Source: a bacterium
GTDB lineage: Bacteria > NPL-UPA2 > JAUVJM01
Reading direction: 5' to 3'
NCBI GenBank assembly: GCA_030606215.1
Contig: JAUWGW010000025.1
Coordinates: 1-23,097 of the forward strand
Length of the DNA: 23,097 bases
Shown here: one piece after another, positions 15,354-21,178 of the stretch
How positions within the stretch are numbered: the stretch's first letter is position 1
Layout of the letters: the number at the start of each line of letters is the position of its first letter
The notes under the pieces: model-generated
What the model was told of the DNA's origin: nothing
Databases searched by the model: none
Seen by the model: the letters and a program-made list of their open reading frames with translations, nothing else
Made by a program: the position numbers and the translations under genes

Positions 15354-17810
15354 ATGAATATTTATACAAGAAACGAAAAAATTGTGCCGGTTTACATTGA
15401 AGATGAGATGCACTCTTCGTACCTTGACTATGCTATGAGCGTCATCGTTGCAAGAGCGCTGCCCGATGTAAGAGATGGGTTGAAACCTGCGCATCGTCGG
15501 ATTCTTATAGCAATGAATGACCTTAACCTATCATATGGCAGACCATTTCGCAAATGCGCAAAAATTGCAGGTGATGTCAGTGGAAATTATCATCCGCACG
15601 GTGAGCAGATTGTCTATCCTTCCCTTGTCCGTATGGCGCAGGGTTTCTCGCTCCGCTATCCGCTTGTTGACAGCCAGGGGAATTTTGGTTCAATAGATGG
15701 TGACCCGCCGGCAGCTATGCGTTACACAGAGGCAAGACTCTCTGCGATTGCAGGAGAAATGCTGAAAGACCTTGATAAAGATACAGTTAAATTCAGGCCG
15801 AATTATGATGAGACGCGGACAGAGCCTGTCGTGTTACCTTCTGCAATTCCAAACCTCCTGATAAATGGCTCATCCGGAATCGCAGTTGGTATGGCTACTG
15901 AGATACCTCCTCATAACTTAGGTGAAATTGTGGATGGGTTAACTCTCCTGATTGAAGACCCGGATGTGGGTATTGAGAAATTAAATAAGGTAGTAAAAGG
16001 GCCTGATTTCCCGACAGGCGGGTTGATAATGGGGCATGAGGGAATAAGAAGTGCTTACACAGGAGGTAGAGGACTCATAAGACTGCGCGCACGAGCTTTT
16101 GTCGAGAGAGAGAGGAAAGGGGAGAAGGAGAAAATTGTTATAACAGAGATTCCATATCAGGTGAATAAAAGCAATCTTGTTGAGAGTATCGCAGGGCTTA
16201 TCAGGGATAAGAAAATCACAGGCATATCAGATCTGCGTGATGAGTCTGACAAGGATGGTATAAGGATTGTGGTGGAACTTCGCAGGGAAGAACCGGCTGA
16301 GGTAGTTCTCAACCAGCTCTACAATCATACCCAGATGCAGGGCACTTTCGGAGCGATAATGCTTGCGCTTGTGAACGGAGAGCCCCGCATTCTCAATCTG
16401 AAGCAGATGCTCGAGCAGTATCTGTCCCACAGGCGGGAAGTTGTGACGCGGCGGACTAAATTTGAATTGAAAAAAGCTTCCGAGCGCGCCCATATAGTTG
16501 AAGGGCTGAAAATTGCTCTTAGCAAGATTGATGATGTCATAAAGACAATAAAGACTTCCAAAACCGTGGAAGATGCGCGAGATAGTTTAACGAAAAAATT
16601 CAAATTAACTGAGAGACAGGCGCAGGCAATTCTTGATATGCGTCTCCAGAGGCTCACGGGACTTGAGCGGAAGAAGCTTCAGAGTGAATATCTTGAATTG
16701 ATAAAGAGAATCGAGAAGTTACGGCAGATTCTTGCAAGTGAGAAGCAGTTAATGAACATAATCAGGGAGGAACTCCTTGAGATAAAGAACAAATACGGAG
16801 ATGAGAGGAGGACAGAAATAGTTGAGAGCGCGGGAGATTTTACAACGGAAGATTTAATTGCTGAAGAGGATATGGTCATAACAATAAGTCATAGTGGTTA
16901 TATAAAGCGTCTTCCGGTAAGTACTTACAGAAAACAGAAGCGCGGCGGCAAGGGAGTAATCGGCGGTGGAAGGAAGGAGGAAGATTTTATAGAGCATTTA
17001 TTCATTGCCTCAACCCATGAATACATCCTCTTCTTCACGGATTTAGGGCGGGTATACTGGGCAAAAGTTTATGAAATTCCTCAAGCAGGACGTCTCTCCA
17101 GAGGAAAAGCCATACCCAATCTCCTTCAGATTAATCCTGAGGAAAGGATTACTGCGCATGTAGTTGTTTCCAATTTTGACGCTGAGCATTTCCTCCTGAT
17201 GATTACTGAGCAGGGAGTAGTTAAGAAGACAAATCTCTCCGCATACGGTCATCCGAGAGCCGGCGGGATAATTGCTGTTGCCCTTGATGCAAAGGATAGA
17301 CTCATAGAGGGGAGATTGACAGATGGCAATGAGGAAATACTTATTGCGACAAGAAATGGAAAGGCAATTCGTTTTTCTGAAAGCCAGCTTCGTTCAATGG
17401 GAAGACCTTCGCGGGGTGTTAAGGGGATTACCCTGGGGAAGGGTGATAAGGTGATTGGAGCAGCAATCGCAGAACCTGATGCGACTGTTCTCTCCGTAAC
17501 TGAAAATGGGTTTGGGAAGAGGAGCCAATTCTCGGATTATCGTATGCAGAGACGCGGCGGAAAAGGAGTTATAAATATAAAGATGACAGACAGGAATGGC
17601 CCAATAGTTGGGTTGAGAACAGTAACTGACAGGGACGAACTGATGTTGATTACCTCAAGAGGGATGGTCATACGTATGCGTGTTGAGCCTATCCGGGTAT
17701 TGCATAGAAATACGCAGGGAGTGCGGTTGATAAGACTTGATGAAGGGGATAAGGTTGTCGCAGTAGCACGGGTGGCAGTTAAGGAGGAAGAAAATCAGGA
17801 AGAAATATGA
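15354..17810 (+). CDS. gyrA: DNA gyrase subunit A
   Basis: GyrA (818 aa) carries the DNA-cleaving tyrosine and the wrapping domain. Tyr124 in AAMRYTEARLS is the catalytic residue. The C-terminal domain has the GyrA box QKRGGKG (528-534), which identifies it as gyrase rather than topoisomerase IV; a related QRRGGKG occurs later. In the quinolone-determining region the sequence reads HGEQIVYPSLVRMAQ, with Gln85 and Pro89 where E. coli has Ser83 and Asp87. The gene starts 1 nt after the PilZ stop and its last 17 nt overlap the proposed archease start. Confidence 0.98.
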   Translation: MNIYTRNEKIVPVYIEDEMHSSYLDYAMSVIVARALPDVRDGLKPAHRRILIAMNDLNLSYGRPFRKCAKIAGDVSGNYHPHGEQIVYPSLVRMAQGFSLRYPLVDSQGNFGSIDGDPPAAMRYTEARLSAIAGEMLKDLDKDTVKFRPNYDETRTEPVVLPSAIPNLLINGSSGIAVGMATEIPPHNLGEIVDGLTLLIEDPDVGIEKLNKVVKGPDFPTGGLIMGHEGIRSAYTGGRGLIRLRARAFVERERKGEKEKIVITEIPYQVNKSNLVESIAGLIRDKKITGISDLRDESDKDGIRIVVELRREEPAEVVLNQLYNHTQMQGTFGAIMLALVNGEPRILNLKQMLEQYLSHRREVVTRRTKFELKKASERAHIVEGLKIALSKIDDVIKTIKTSKTVEDARDSLTKKFKLTERQAQAILDMRLQRLTGLERKKLQSEYLELIKRIEKLRQILASEKQLMNIIREELLEIKNKYGDERRTEIVESAGDFTTEDLIAEEDMVITISHSGYIKRLPVSTYRKQKRGGKGVIGGGRKEEDFIEHLFIASTHEYILFFTDLGRVYWAKVYEIPQAGRLSRGKAIPNLLQINPEERITAHVVVSNFDAEHFLLMITEQGVVKKTNLSAYGHPRAGGIIAVALDAKDRLIEGRLTDGNEEILIATRNGKAIRFSESQLRSMGRPSRGVKGITLGKGDKVIGAAIAEPDATVLSVTENGFGKRSQFSDYRMQRRGGKGVINIKMTDRNGPIVGLRTVTDRDELMLITSRGMVIRMRVEPIRVLHRNTQGVRLIRLDEGDKVVAVARVAVKEEENQEEI
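17781..17787 (+). promoter_or_regulatory. Perfect Shine-Dalgarno for archease inside gyrA
   Basis: AAGGAGG lies within the last codons of gyrA, exactly 6 nt before an in-frame ATC (17794-17796). No ATG, GTG or TTG in the archease frame lies within range, so this site argues for initiation at ATC. Confidence 0.6.
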
Positions 17811-18213
17811 AATTGTTGAACATACTGCAGATGTGGGGTTAAGGATTTTCGGAGAGAACCTCGAAACTCTTTTCATCAACGCGGGAATTGCCTTTTTTGA
17901 ATTAATCGCCGAAGTTGAAAAAGTTGAGGAGAAAGAATCGGTTGATTTCAGCGTAGAGGCAGAGGATAGGAAAGAGCTGCTTGTCAGATGGCTGAGCGAA
18001 CTGCACTTCAAGTTTGAAGTCGAGAGATTGCTTTTCACGCGGTTCCATATTTCAAAAATCAGCGAGAAGTCTCTGGAAGCAAAAGCTTATGGAGAAAAAT
18101 TTGACTCTGGACGCCATGAATTGAAAACGGAAATCAAAGGAGTTACCTACCACCAGTTGAAAGTGGAGCCCATTCAGGGAGGATGGGTTGCAGAGGTAAT
18201 TTTTGATGTCTGA
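17794..18213 (+). CDS. Archease, RtcB activator, with a probable ATC start
   Basis: Archease speeds guanylylation and turnover of the RNA ligase RtcB. The frame reads RKKYEIVEHTADVGLRIFG, then the conserved GRHELKTEIKGVTYH region and a terminal VAEVIFDV, a clear match to the family. The conserved EHTAD with metal-binding Asp13 lies upstream of the first conventional start (GTG 17833), so that start would delete an essential motif. From the stop at 17764 to GTG 17833 the frame has no ATG, GTG or TTG. ATC 17794 has a perfect AAGGAGG 6 nt upstream and gives the expected N-terminal length (139 aa). A sequencing indel or a frameshift from an out-of-frame ATG at 17807 is the alternative. It overlaps rtcB by 8 nt. 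Confidence 0.88.
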   Translation: MRKKYEIVEHTADVGLRIFGENLETLFINAGIAFFELIAEVEKVEEKESVDFSVEAEDRKELLVRWLSELHFKFEVERLLFTRFHISKISEKSLEAKAYGEKFDSGRHELKTEIKGVTYHQLKVEPIQGGWVAEVIFDV

Positions 18214-21178
18214 TATTCTTTTTGAAAAAGTTGATGATTACAGGTGGCGTATCCCACAGAATTTCCAGGAAGGGATGCGTGTTCCTGGATTGATTTATGC
18301 TGATGAAAGTCTCATTGAACCTATCAAGGGGGACAAAACTGCCCAACAGGTTGCAAATGTGGCAAGCTTGCCAGGTATTGTCAAGTACTCTCTGGCAATG
18401 CCTGATATTCACTGGGGCTATGGTTTTCCTATAGGGGGCGTTGCGGCGACCGACCCGTCTGAAGGAGGTGTAATCTCACCTGGAGGGGTGGGTTTTGATA
18501 TCAACTGTCTTTCTGGAGATTCGTCTATACTGCATGACCTGGGTTATTCGCTACCGATAAGAGATTTTGAAAACAGATGGAAAGAAGGAGTTATTAAGTG
18601 TTTTGATTTCCGTAGAGAGAGCTCGACTGGGGTATCTATCTGCAACTTTCTAAAGCGCAAGCCTCACAACAGGGTGTACGAACTGGTAACTGGTACGAGT
18701 AGGAAGATCATCGCAACAGAAGACCATCCATTTTATACAAAAGACGGTATGAAACCTCTCAATAAATTAACAGATGGAGAAGAAGTTGCTGTTTATCCAT
18801 TTGAAGGGGTTCCATACGAAAAGCCATCAGGTGAGGTGATAGTGACAGAGGAGGCGGTAAGGAAAATCCTCAAGCATCTCCGGAAAGGTTCCAGAGGTAA
18901 CGCGCTTGGGCAAATTCTCAAGCATCTGAAGAAACGGAATCTATTGTTGATACGGTACGATTCAGAAGTGTTACCTTATTTGTTGAAAGTAATGGCATAT
19001 GTTCTTGGGGACGGCACCATGTATTTCAGCGGGGCAGGAGGTTCTGGAATTACCTGGTTTTATGGTAAGCCACAAGATCTGGAGGAAATTCGGCAGGATG
19101 TAGTGAAAATAGGTTACACTCCTTCGCGTATTTATAAAAGGGAAAGAAACCACAAGATGCGTACTATGTATTCAGAATATGGGTTTAGTACGACTGAGAC
19201 TTCTTTTAAAGTATGCTCGAGTAGTTTTGCGGCTCTTCTCATTGCACTTGGGACGCCATTTGGAAATAAAGCGAGTCAGGATTTCTGTGTTCCTCCATGG
19301 CTTTTTAAGGCACCGCTCTGGCAGAAAAGGCTATTCCTTGCATCTTTCTTCGGAGCAGAGATGTCAACACCACGGTGTATGAGCGAACACCAACATAATT
19401 TCTATTGTCCGATGGTTTCAGTTAATAAGAAGAAAGGATATGTTCAAAACGGAAGAGTTTTTCTGGAAGAGATAGCATTATTACTTGAGGAGTTCGGAGT
19501 CCAGATACACAGGATCAGTAGAAAGTTAAGCTACGTGAATGATAAAGGAGAGACATCTGACCGTTTACGACTTATTCTATCGAGCAGCCCGGAAAGTATG
19601 ATGAATCTTTACGCCAGGGTTGGATTCGAATACAACAAAAAAAGGCGTTTCATTGGCAATGTTGTTGTTCATTATCTCAAACGGAAAGGAATTCTCATTC
19701 GTGAGCGAAAAGAAATAGCATCTCGAGCAAGACGATTAAGGGAAACGGCTCACTTGAGTGCAAAGTGTATCTATGATGAGCTTGATACGAAAGTAGTGAA
19801 TTTCAGATTTATACAGAGGTCAGTCTACGGGGGTAGGAAAACAGCACCCCGCATAGGGGAAGACAAAATTGGTTTTGATGAGTTTCTCAGTGATGTAACT
19901 TCAGGACTTGGTGAATCAGGTATGGTATGGGATGATATAGTGACCAAGAGAGAAATAGAATTTGATGATTATGTCTACGATTTTACTGTGAACCATCCTG
20001 ACCACAATTTTGTTGCGAATGGTTTTGTCGTTTCAAACTGTGGGATAAGATTAATGAGGAGTAATCTGAAATTGGGGGATGTGAGCAAATATATTGAGGA
20101 ACTTGTTGATGGACTATTTGCGAATGTGCCCTGTGGCGTCGGTTCACGCAGTTCCCTCAGATTATCCCGCAAGGAACAGGAGAAAGTGCTGGTGGAAGGT
20201 GCAAAATGGATTGTGGAGAGAGGTTATGGCACGATGGATGATGTTGCGCATACTGAGGAGAAAGGTGCACTTCCCGGGGCGGATCCGTCTAAGGTAAGTC
20301 AGCATGCAATGGAAAGAGGATCTCCACAACAGGGAACTCTTGGAGCGGGGAATCATTTCCTTGAAATTCAGGTTATTGAGAAGATTTATGAGCCGGAAGC
20401 TGCAAAAGTTTTCGGGCTTGAGGAAGGGCAGATTACTGTTATGATTCACTGTGGTTCAAGAGGGTTCGGTCATCAGGTATGTACTGATTACCTGCGGGTG
20501 ATTGGCAAAGCGATGGCACACTATGGAATCCATGTTCCTGATAGGCAATTAGCGTGTGTCCCGGTTGATTCTAAAGAAGGGAAGGATTATTTCTCCGCAA
20601 TGGCATGTGCGGCAAATTATGCCTGGGCGAATAGGCAGTTGATAATGCACTGGGTGAGGGAAACATTCCAGAAAGTGCTCGGGATGAGTCCTAATGACCT
20701 CGGTATGGAACTTGTCTATGATGTTGCTCACAACATTGCGAAGTTTGAAACTCATGGAGGGAAGAAACTCTGCGTCCACAGGAAAGGTGCAACAAGAGCT
20801 TTCCCTGCAGGGCATCCAGATTTGCCGGAAGATTACAGGGAGGTAGGACAGCCTGTAATTATTCCAGGCGATATGGGGAGAAATTCATATGTCCTCGTTG
20901 GGACTGAAAGAGCGATGAATGAGACATGGGGCAGCACCTGTCACGGAGCCGGGCGTGTTATGAGCAGACATGCTGCTATAAAGGCGGCTCGCGGGAAATC
21001 AATTTTCAAGGAACTTCAGGAGAGAGGTGTTACTGTGAGGGCAAAGGGAAGGGAGACACTTGCGGAAGAAGCGCCTGAAGCTTACAAAGATGTCAACAAA
21101 GTGGTAGAAGTGGTTCATAACGCTGGCATCTCTAAACGTGTTGCGAAAATGAAGCCAATAGGAGTGGTGAAAGGATAA
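18206..21178 (+). CDS. rtcB: RNA-splicing ligase RtcB, intein-containing precursor
   Basis: RtcB joins RNA 2',3'-cyclic phosphate or 3'-phosphate ends to 5'-OH ends through a guanylylated histidine and Mn2+. The 990-residue precursor encodes a 479-residue mature ligase (the size of the archaeal enzyme) split after Asn100 by a 511-residue intein. In mature numbering the metal and active-site residues are Cys101 (DIN/CGIRL), His206 (GAGNHFLE), His237 (HCGSRGFGH), His331 (VAHN) and His402 (TCHGAG), with spacing close to Pyrococcus RtcB. ATG 18206 is chosen over TTG 18203. It overlaps archease by 8 nt, and serS begins directly after its stop, so the three genes look co-transcribed. Confidence 0.97.
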   Translation: MSDILFEKVDDYRWRIPQNFQEGMRVPGLIYADESLIEPIKGDKTAQQVANVASLPGIVKYSLAMPDIHWGYGFPIGGVAATDPSEGGVISPGGVGFDINCLSGDSSILHDLGYSLPIRDFENRWKEGVIKCFDFRRESSTGVSICNFLKRKPHNRVYELVTGTSRKIIATEDHPFYTKDGMKPLNKLTDGEEVAVYPFEGVPYEKPSGEVIVTEEAVRKILKHLRKGSRGNALGQILKHLKKRNLLLIRYDSEVLPYLLKVMAYVLGDGTMYFSGAGGSGITWFYGKPQDLEEIRQDVVKIGYTPSRIYKRERNHKMRTMYSEYGFSTTETSFKVCSSSFAALLIALGTPFGNKASQDFCVPPWLFKAPLWQKRLFLASFFGAEMSTPRCMSEHQHNFYCPMVSVNKKKGYVQNGRVFLEEIALLLEEFGVQIHRISRKLSYVNDKGETSDRLRLILSSSPESMMNLYARVGFEYNKKRRFIGNVVVHYLKRKGILIRERKEIASRARRLRETAHLSAKCIYDELDTKVVNFRFIQRSVYGGRKTAPRIGEDKIGFDEFLSDVTSGLGESGMVWDDIVTKREIEFDDYVYDFTVNHPDHNFVANGFVVSNCGIRLMRSNLKLGDVSKYIEELVDGLFANVPCGVGSRSSLRLSRKEQEKVLVEGAKWIVERGYGTMDDVAHTEEKGALPGADPSKVSQHAMERGSPQQGTLGAGNHFLEIQVIEKIYEPEAAKVFGLEEGQITVMIHCGSRGFGHQVCTDYLRVIGKAMAHYGIHVPDRQLACVPVDSKEGKDYFSAMACAANYAWANRQLIMHWVRETFQKVLGMSPNDLGMELVYDVAHNIAKFETHGGKKLCVHRKGATRAFPAGHPDLPEDYREVGQPVIIPGDMGRNSYVLVGTERAMNETWGSTCHGAGRVMSRHAAIKAARGKSIFKELQERGVTVRAKGRETLAEEAPEAYKDVNKVVEVVHNAGISKRVAKMKPIGVVKG
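18506..20038 (+). mobile_element. Intein with LAGLIDADG homing endonuclease inside rtcB
   Basis: The 511-residue insertion begins at Cys1 (CLSGDSSIL, block A) and ends at Asn511 before the extein Cys (VVSN/C). Block B has ATEDHPF with Thr71 and His74; block F/G reads VYDFTVNHPDHNFVANGF. Two LAGLIDADG-like helices are visible: LKVMAYVLGDG (160-170, acidic residue Asp169) and FLASFFGAEMS (277-287), where the second acidic position is Glu285. The penultimate residue is Ser510 rather than the usual His. The site, directly before the Mn-binding Cys, is the one used by RtcB inteins in Pyrococcus. Removing it leaves an uninterrupted DINCGIRL motif. Confidence 0.96.

Follow-up and report, generated by a model that had tools for sequence, protein, structure and literature searches.

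A probable homing intein with a LAGLIDADG endonuclease directly before the metal-binding cysteine codon of a bacterial rtcB gene

Introduction

The ligase RtcB of the archaeon Pyrococcus horikoshii is a product of protein splicing, with the splice junction at Cys98 (PMC4150793). Precursors of this kind have their own curated model, NCBIfam NF038162 ('intein-containing RtcB family protein'). In the open-access literature we found no paper on bacterial RtcB inteins. Here we describe an interrupted rtcB gene in a stretch of bacterial DNA of 23,097 nucleotides (the window, meaning the whole stretch analysed). We hold it very probable that the gene, the only rtcB found in its genome, carries a full-length homing intein with a LAGLIDADG endonuclease, placed directly before the codon of the metal-binding cysteine.

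The interrupted gene and its neighbors

The genes around the insertion all lie on the + strand, in the order dnaA, dnaN, a small gene, gyrB, another small gene, gyrA, archease, rtcB and serS. The 3′-end of the archease gene overlaps the start of rtcB by 8 bases, and serS comes directly after rtcB. Archease is an established cofactor of RtcB. Over 17782-17833 (+) its frame is without ATG, GTG or TTG upstream of the GTG at 17833, and the homology reaches to about 17800; an ATC at 17794, 6 bases past an AGGAGG, may be a rare archease start codon.

The rtcB gene itself is a single open frame from 18206 to 21178 (+) of 990 codons, with an ATG start, a TAA stop and no internal stops. It is interrupted at 18506-20038 by 511 residues (101-611 of the precursor) that stand between GFDIN and CGIRL. 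The features are as follows.

17794..18213, + strand: archease gene (PF01951, 159.5 bits; PRK00407, 139.6 bits)
18206..18505, + strand: N-extein of rtcB, 100 codons, ending in GFDIN (PF01139 match in the search of its own genome; aligned with PH1602 residues 5-98)
18506..20038, + strand: intein, 511 residues, Cys1 to Asn511 (PF14890, TIGR01445, TIGR01443; AlphaFold2 model)
18506..18793, + strand: first half of the Hint splicing domain, residues 1-96 (block A with Cys1; block B, ATEDHPF)
18962..19627, + strand: LAGLIDADG endonuclease domain, residues 153-374 (match to I-DmoI; acids D169 and E285)
19628..19909, + strand: helical extension, residues 375-468, between the endonuclease and the second Hint half (secondary structure of the model)
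19922..20038, + strand: second half of the Hint splicing domain, residues 473-511 (block F, VYDFTVNHPDHNF; block G, FVVSN)
20039..21178, + strand: C-extein of rtcB with the stop codon, starting with Cys+1 (PF01139, 525 bits; aligned with PH1602 residues 97-481)

Removal of the intein (990 - 511) leaves a predicted spliced RtcB of 479 residues with all of the metal and guanylylation ligands. This product aligns over nearly its full length with P. horikoshii RtcB (1uc2, PH1602; E=9e-177). C612 of the window precursor, the Cys+1 residue, falls on Cys98 of the archaeal protein, and D98, H717, H748, H842 and H913 fall on D95, H203, H234, H329 and H404. Once spliced, Cys+1 would become the metal ligand Cys101. 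A PF01139 search of the same genome (1.52 Mb, 92.9% complete) found no second RtcB gene, intact or otherwise. As one RtcB gene was found in the genome, a spliceable precursor would be the only apparent source of RtcB.

Anatomy of the intein

The borders of the intein are exact: Cys1 is the TGT at 18506-18508, Asn511 the AAC at 20036-20038, and Cys+1 the TGT that follows at 20039. Cys1, the terminal Asn511, Cys+1, the TxxH motif of block B, the block F motif and the Hint fold are all present. Three curated models score above their cut-offs, namely Pfam Intein_splicing (PF14890) at 54.9 bits (cut-off 35.8), TIGR01445 intein_Nterm at 34.8 bits (24.5) and TIGR01443 intein_Cterm at 21.1 bits (15.6). 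In the AlphaFold2 model of the intein (mean pLDDT 93.1), the Hint part superimposes on the Ssp DnaB mini-intein with a Z of 21.8 and 1.5 Å over 136 residues. A chance pattern is excluded by the curated models together with the predicted fold. The intein has a G+C content of 41.7%, the extein 47.8% and the window 43.6%, values that say nothing either way about a recent transfer.

The penultimate residue is Ser510 in place of the usual His, a deviation absent from the initial annotation, and Ser is the norm of the family (74 of 77 relatives). A penultimate His is usual among inteins but not obligatory, and hence Ser510 leaves the membership standing. In some inteins Ser at this position slows the cyclization of Asn.

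The endonuclease is seen in the predicted fold. Residues 153-374 of the model match I-DmoI with a Z of 16.1 and 2.1 Å over 164 residues, and the two helices of the LAGLIDADG motif lie at 156-169, with D169, and at 271-285, with E285. The LAGLIDADG sequence models miss the domain (LAGLIDADG_3, PF14528, E=0.9), which made the predicted fold a requirement for recognizing it. That the helical extension which follows may contact DNA is a guess. The initial annotation had read splicing blocks A, B, F and G and two LAGLIDADG-like helices as splitting rtcB between DIN and CGIRL, and frame, models and fold show this to be correct to the base. Its 479-residue ligase with all metal ligands is borne out by the 1uc2 alignment, and the site that it held to be common to Pyrococcus RtcB is indeed so, given the splice junction at Cys98 and the alignment of C612 with that residue.

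We infer from this anatomy that the precursor would excise its own intein through the Hint domain, by an acyl shift at Cys1, transfer to Cys+1 and cyclization of Asn511, and that DIN would thereby be joined to CGIRL in the 479-residue enzyme. The endonuclease, if it has the cutting activity that its fold suggests, would cut intein-free rtcB alleles at the same site, where repair would copy the intein in.

Family size, spread and conservation

NF038162 covers the window precursor end to end (2-961 of 961) with 1264 bits against a curated cut-off of 1150; the intein alone matches the model with 433 bits. One scan of species genomes, which selected loci by the patterns of blocks B and F, returned 128 relatives. 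The best 80 of these 128 represent at least 16 named phyla of bacteria and, among the archaea, several lineages (Altarchaeota, Thermoplasmatota, Nitrososphaerota, Brockarchaeota, Woesearchaeota, a nanoarchaeote and Diapherotrites). Most of the relatives are metagenome bins, and some host assignments may thus be in error. The window intein is not the notable bacterial find that it was at first taken for, since its class is named and, with 128 relatives, widespread. A scan of viral contigs for carriage by phage gave one distant match, with the intein in a different gene. Weak search matches also included inteins in a DnaB-like helicase and in a DNA polymerase III alpha-like protein.

All 77 complete relatives have Cys1 and Asn511, 76 have E285 and 72 have D169, and 72 of the 77 occupy the same insertion site in rtcB. 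It should be noted that the way in which the scan selected loci partly builds in the conservation of blocks B and F. The distribution is patchy close to home: within a sample of 98 genomes centered on the relatives of the window, four have an RtcB intein, the window's own included. One relative, from an Aerophobetes bin (L070, 702-2066), no longer has either acid and lacks parts of the endonuclease (ENEK stands for GDGT, and K for the second acid), but its splicing residues are intact, as is typical of an element that decays in the course of the homing cycle.

Mobility within the family

Homing predicts that an intein can be younger in a pair of hosts than the gene around it, and several pairs of relatives show this. 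In two Bipolaricaulota bins the synonymous divergence is 0.02-0.04 for the intein vs. 0.41 for the flanking rtcB, and identity steps sharply at the intein junctions. The corresponding values are 0.12-0.15 vs. 0.79 in a pair from Atribacterota, and 0.35-0.48 vs. 1.45 in a pair from the window's own intein group (L010 and L067). One further pair (L042 and L044) has the reverse pattern, the intein being more divergent than rtcB. The endonuclease is constrained, with a dN/dS of 0.05-0.34 where synonymous change is unsaturated. The divergence pattern and the constrained endonuclease directly support homing in the family, not of the window copy itself; movement between close relatives within the family has been recent.

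Trees and transfer between domains

The window intein groups with inteins from Atribacterota, Aerophobota and Clostridia bins, although the branch is not a strong one (SH-aLRT 90). Its nearest inteins are bacterial, and by the trees it has no archaeal link of its own. The archaeal inteins stand at three places of the intein tree, and joining them is marginally rejected (p-AU 0.041). Intein and extein trees conflict in places: the inteins of Altarchaea adjoin an intein of Desantisbacteria, whereas the exteins lie apart. The opposition of the extein data to a grouping of Altarchaea with Desantisbacteria is only marginal and does not firmly reject it (p-AU 0.057). Transfer between archaea and bacteria in the RtcB-intein family is plausible on these trees but unproven.

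Homing across the two domains had been proposed in the initial annotation, with a comparison of intein and extein trees as its check. The homing part is supported within the family, on synonymous divergence, whereas the case for a move between domains is weak. The two trees conflict in places and, for the window, have several neighbors in common.

Alternative explanations

The intein could be vertically old in the window lineage and lost from the sister genomes, instead of recently acquired. We regard this as a possibility of some weight, if on the whole unlikely. The intein and extein of the window have neighbors in common (Aerophobota L010, L067 and L015, and the Clostridia bin L014), and the closest intein is 42% divergent, so that no recent donor is seen. 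However, the site is empty in eight of eight genomes of the same phylum, one of them of the same family, which have rtcB without an intein. The window extein also lies near two of the intein-free genes of its phylum (L091 and L092), the nearest exteins from that phylum. The trees conflict elsewhere as well, as the Atribacterota inteins are near that of the window and their exteins fall outside that group. A different doubt concerns the endonuclease, which could be dead in the window copy, the element persisting through clean splicing alone. The failure of the LAGLIDADG sequence models and the comparable decay in L070 speak for this, but the window copy retains both acids and both motif helices intact and its fold matches I-DmoI, and a dead enzyme is accordingly improbable.

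The intein might instead be a regulatory switch, in which metal or oxidation acting at Cys1 and Cys+1 would control splicing and hence the level of active RtcB. By the alignment, insertion before a metal-ligand Cys would leave the precursor inactive. Conditional splicing is documented elsewhere, in RadA (PMC5790916) and in DnaB with zinc (PMC7360933) or with oxidation (PMC6195587), and L070 has kept its splicing residues though both endonuclease acids are gone. Yet a homing element is equally expected in invariant active-site codons, because there the target DNA cannot mutate away, and a conserved endonuclease in a mobile element needs no benefit to the host. We consider a switch very improbable; that splicing gates RNA repair, as the initial annotation proposed, is speculation from the position of the insertion. 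We prefer the reading of a homing intein with an intact endonuclease.

Other intein sites in rtcB

Unexpectedly, related inteins are also found at a second rtcB site, GYGF^CIGG (L049, L077, L084 and L089, with the end of one in L012), and at a third, SPGM^CGYDIN (L071). In both L049 and L089 one rtcB holds two complete related inteins; in L012 the end of a second one is visible. A Desantisbacteria gene (L033) has an extra intein, apparently of another family, at FGTV^CHGAGR near the C-terminus, where it splits the catalytic His motif. A single origin for the inteins of the two other sites is not rejected (p-AU 0.062). The broader proposal, that rtcB is a multi-site hotspot in which one intein lineage has shifted among at least three sites and crossed between archaea and bacteria, with splicing at the metal-ligand Cys as a gate on RNA repair that depends on conditions, is in our view very doubtful.

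Comparison with known systems

Multiple insertion sites and double inteins per gene, as in L049 and L089, are likewise known from the haloarchaeal MCM inteins a and d (PMC10643990), but MCM is a different gene and the window rtcB has one intein only. The two-domain fold of Hint and LAGLIDADG is that of PI-PfuI, TliVMA, PhoVMA and other structurally known endonuclease inteins. These differ in host gene and in domain placement: over the whole length the rmsd exceeds 12 Å, whereas the domains match separately. The intein of P. horikoshii RtcB (PH1602) has the same insertion point before the metal-ligand Cys, a likeness of site, and its host is archaeal whereas that of the window is bacterial. From the precursors of NF038162 the window precursor does not differ in architecture.

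In sum, the window intein is one more case of a class that is already known and named, a solid result and not a surprising one. It adds an uncharacterized bacterial member to the large family of RtcB inteins and alone alters no accepted view. Since that family extends across many bacterial candidate phyla and archaea, rtcB is a good subject for studies of homing across lineages.
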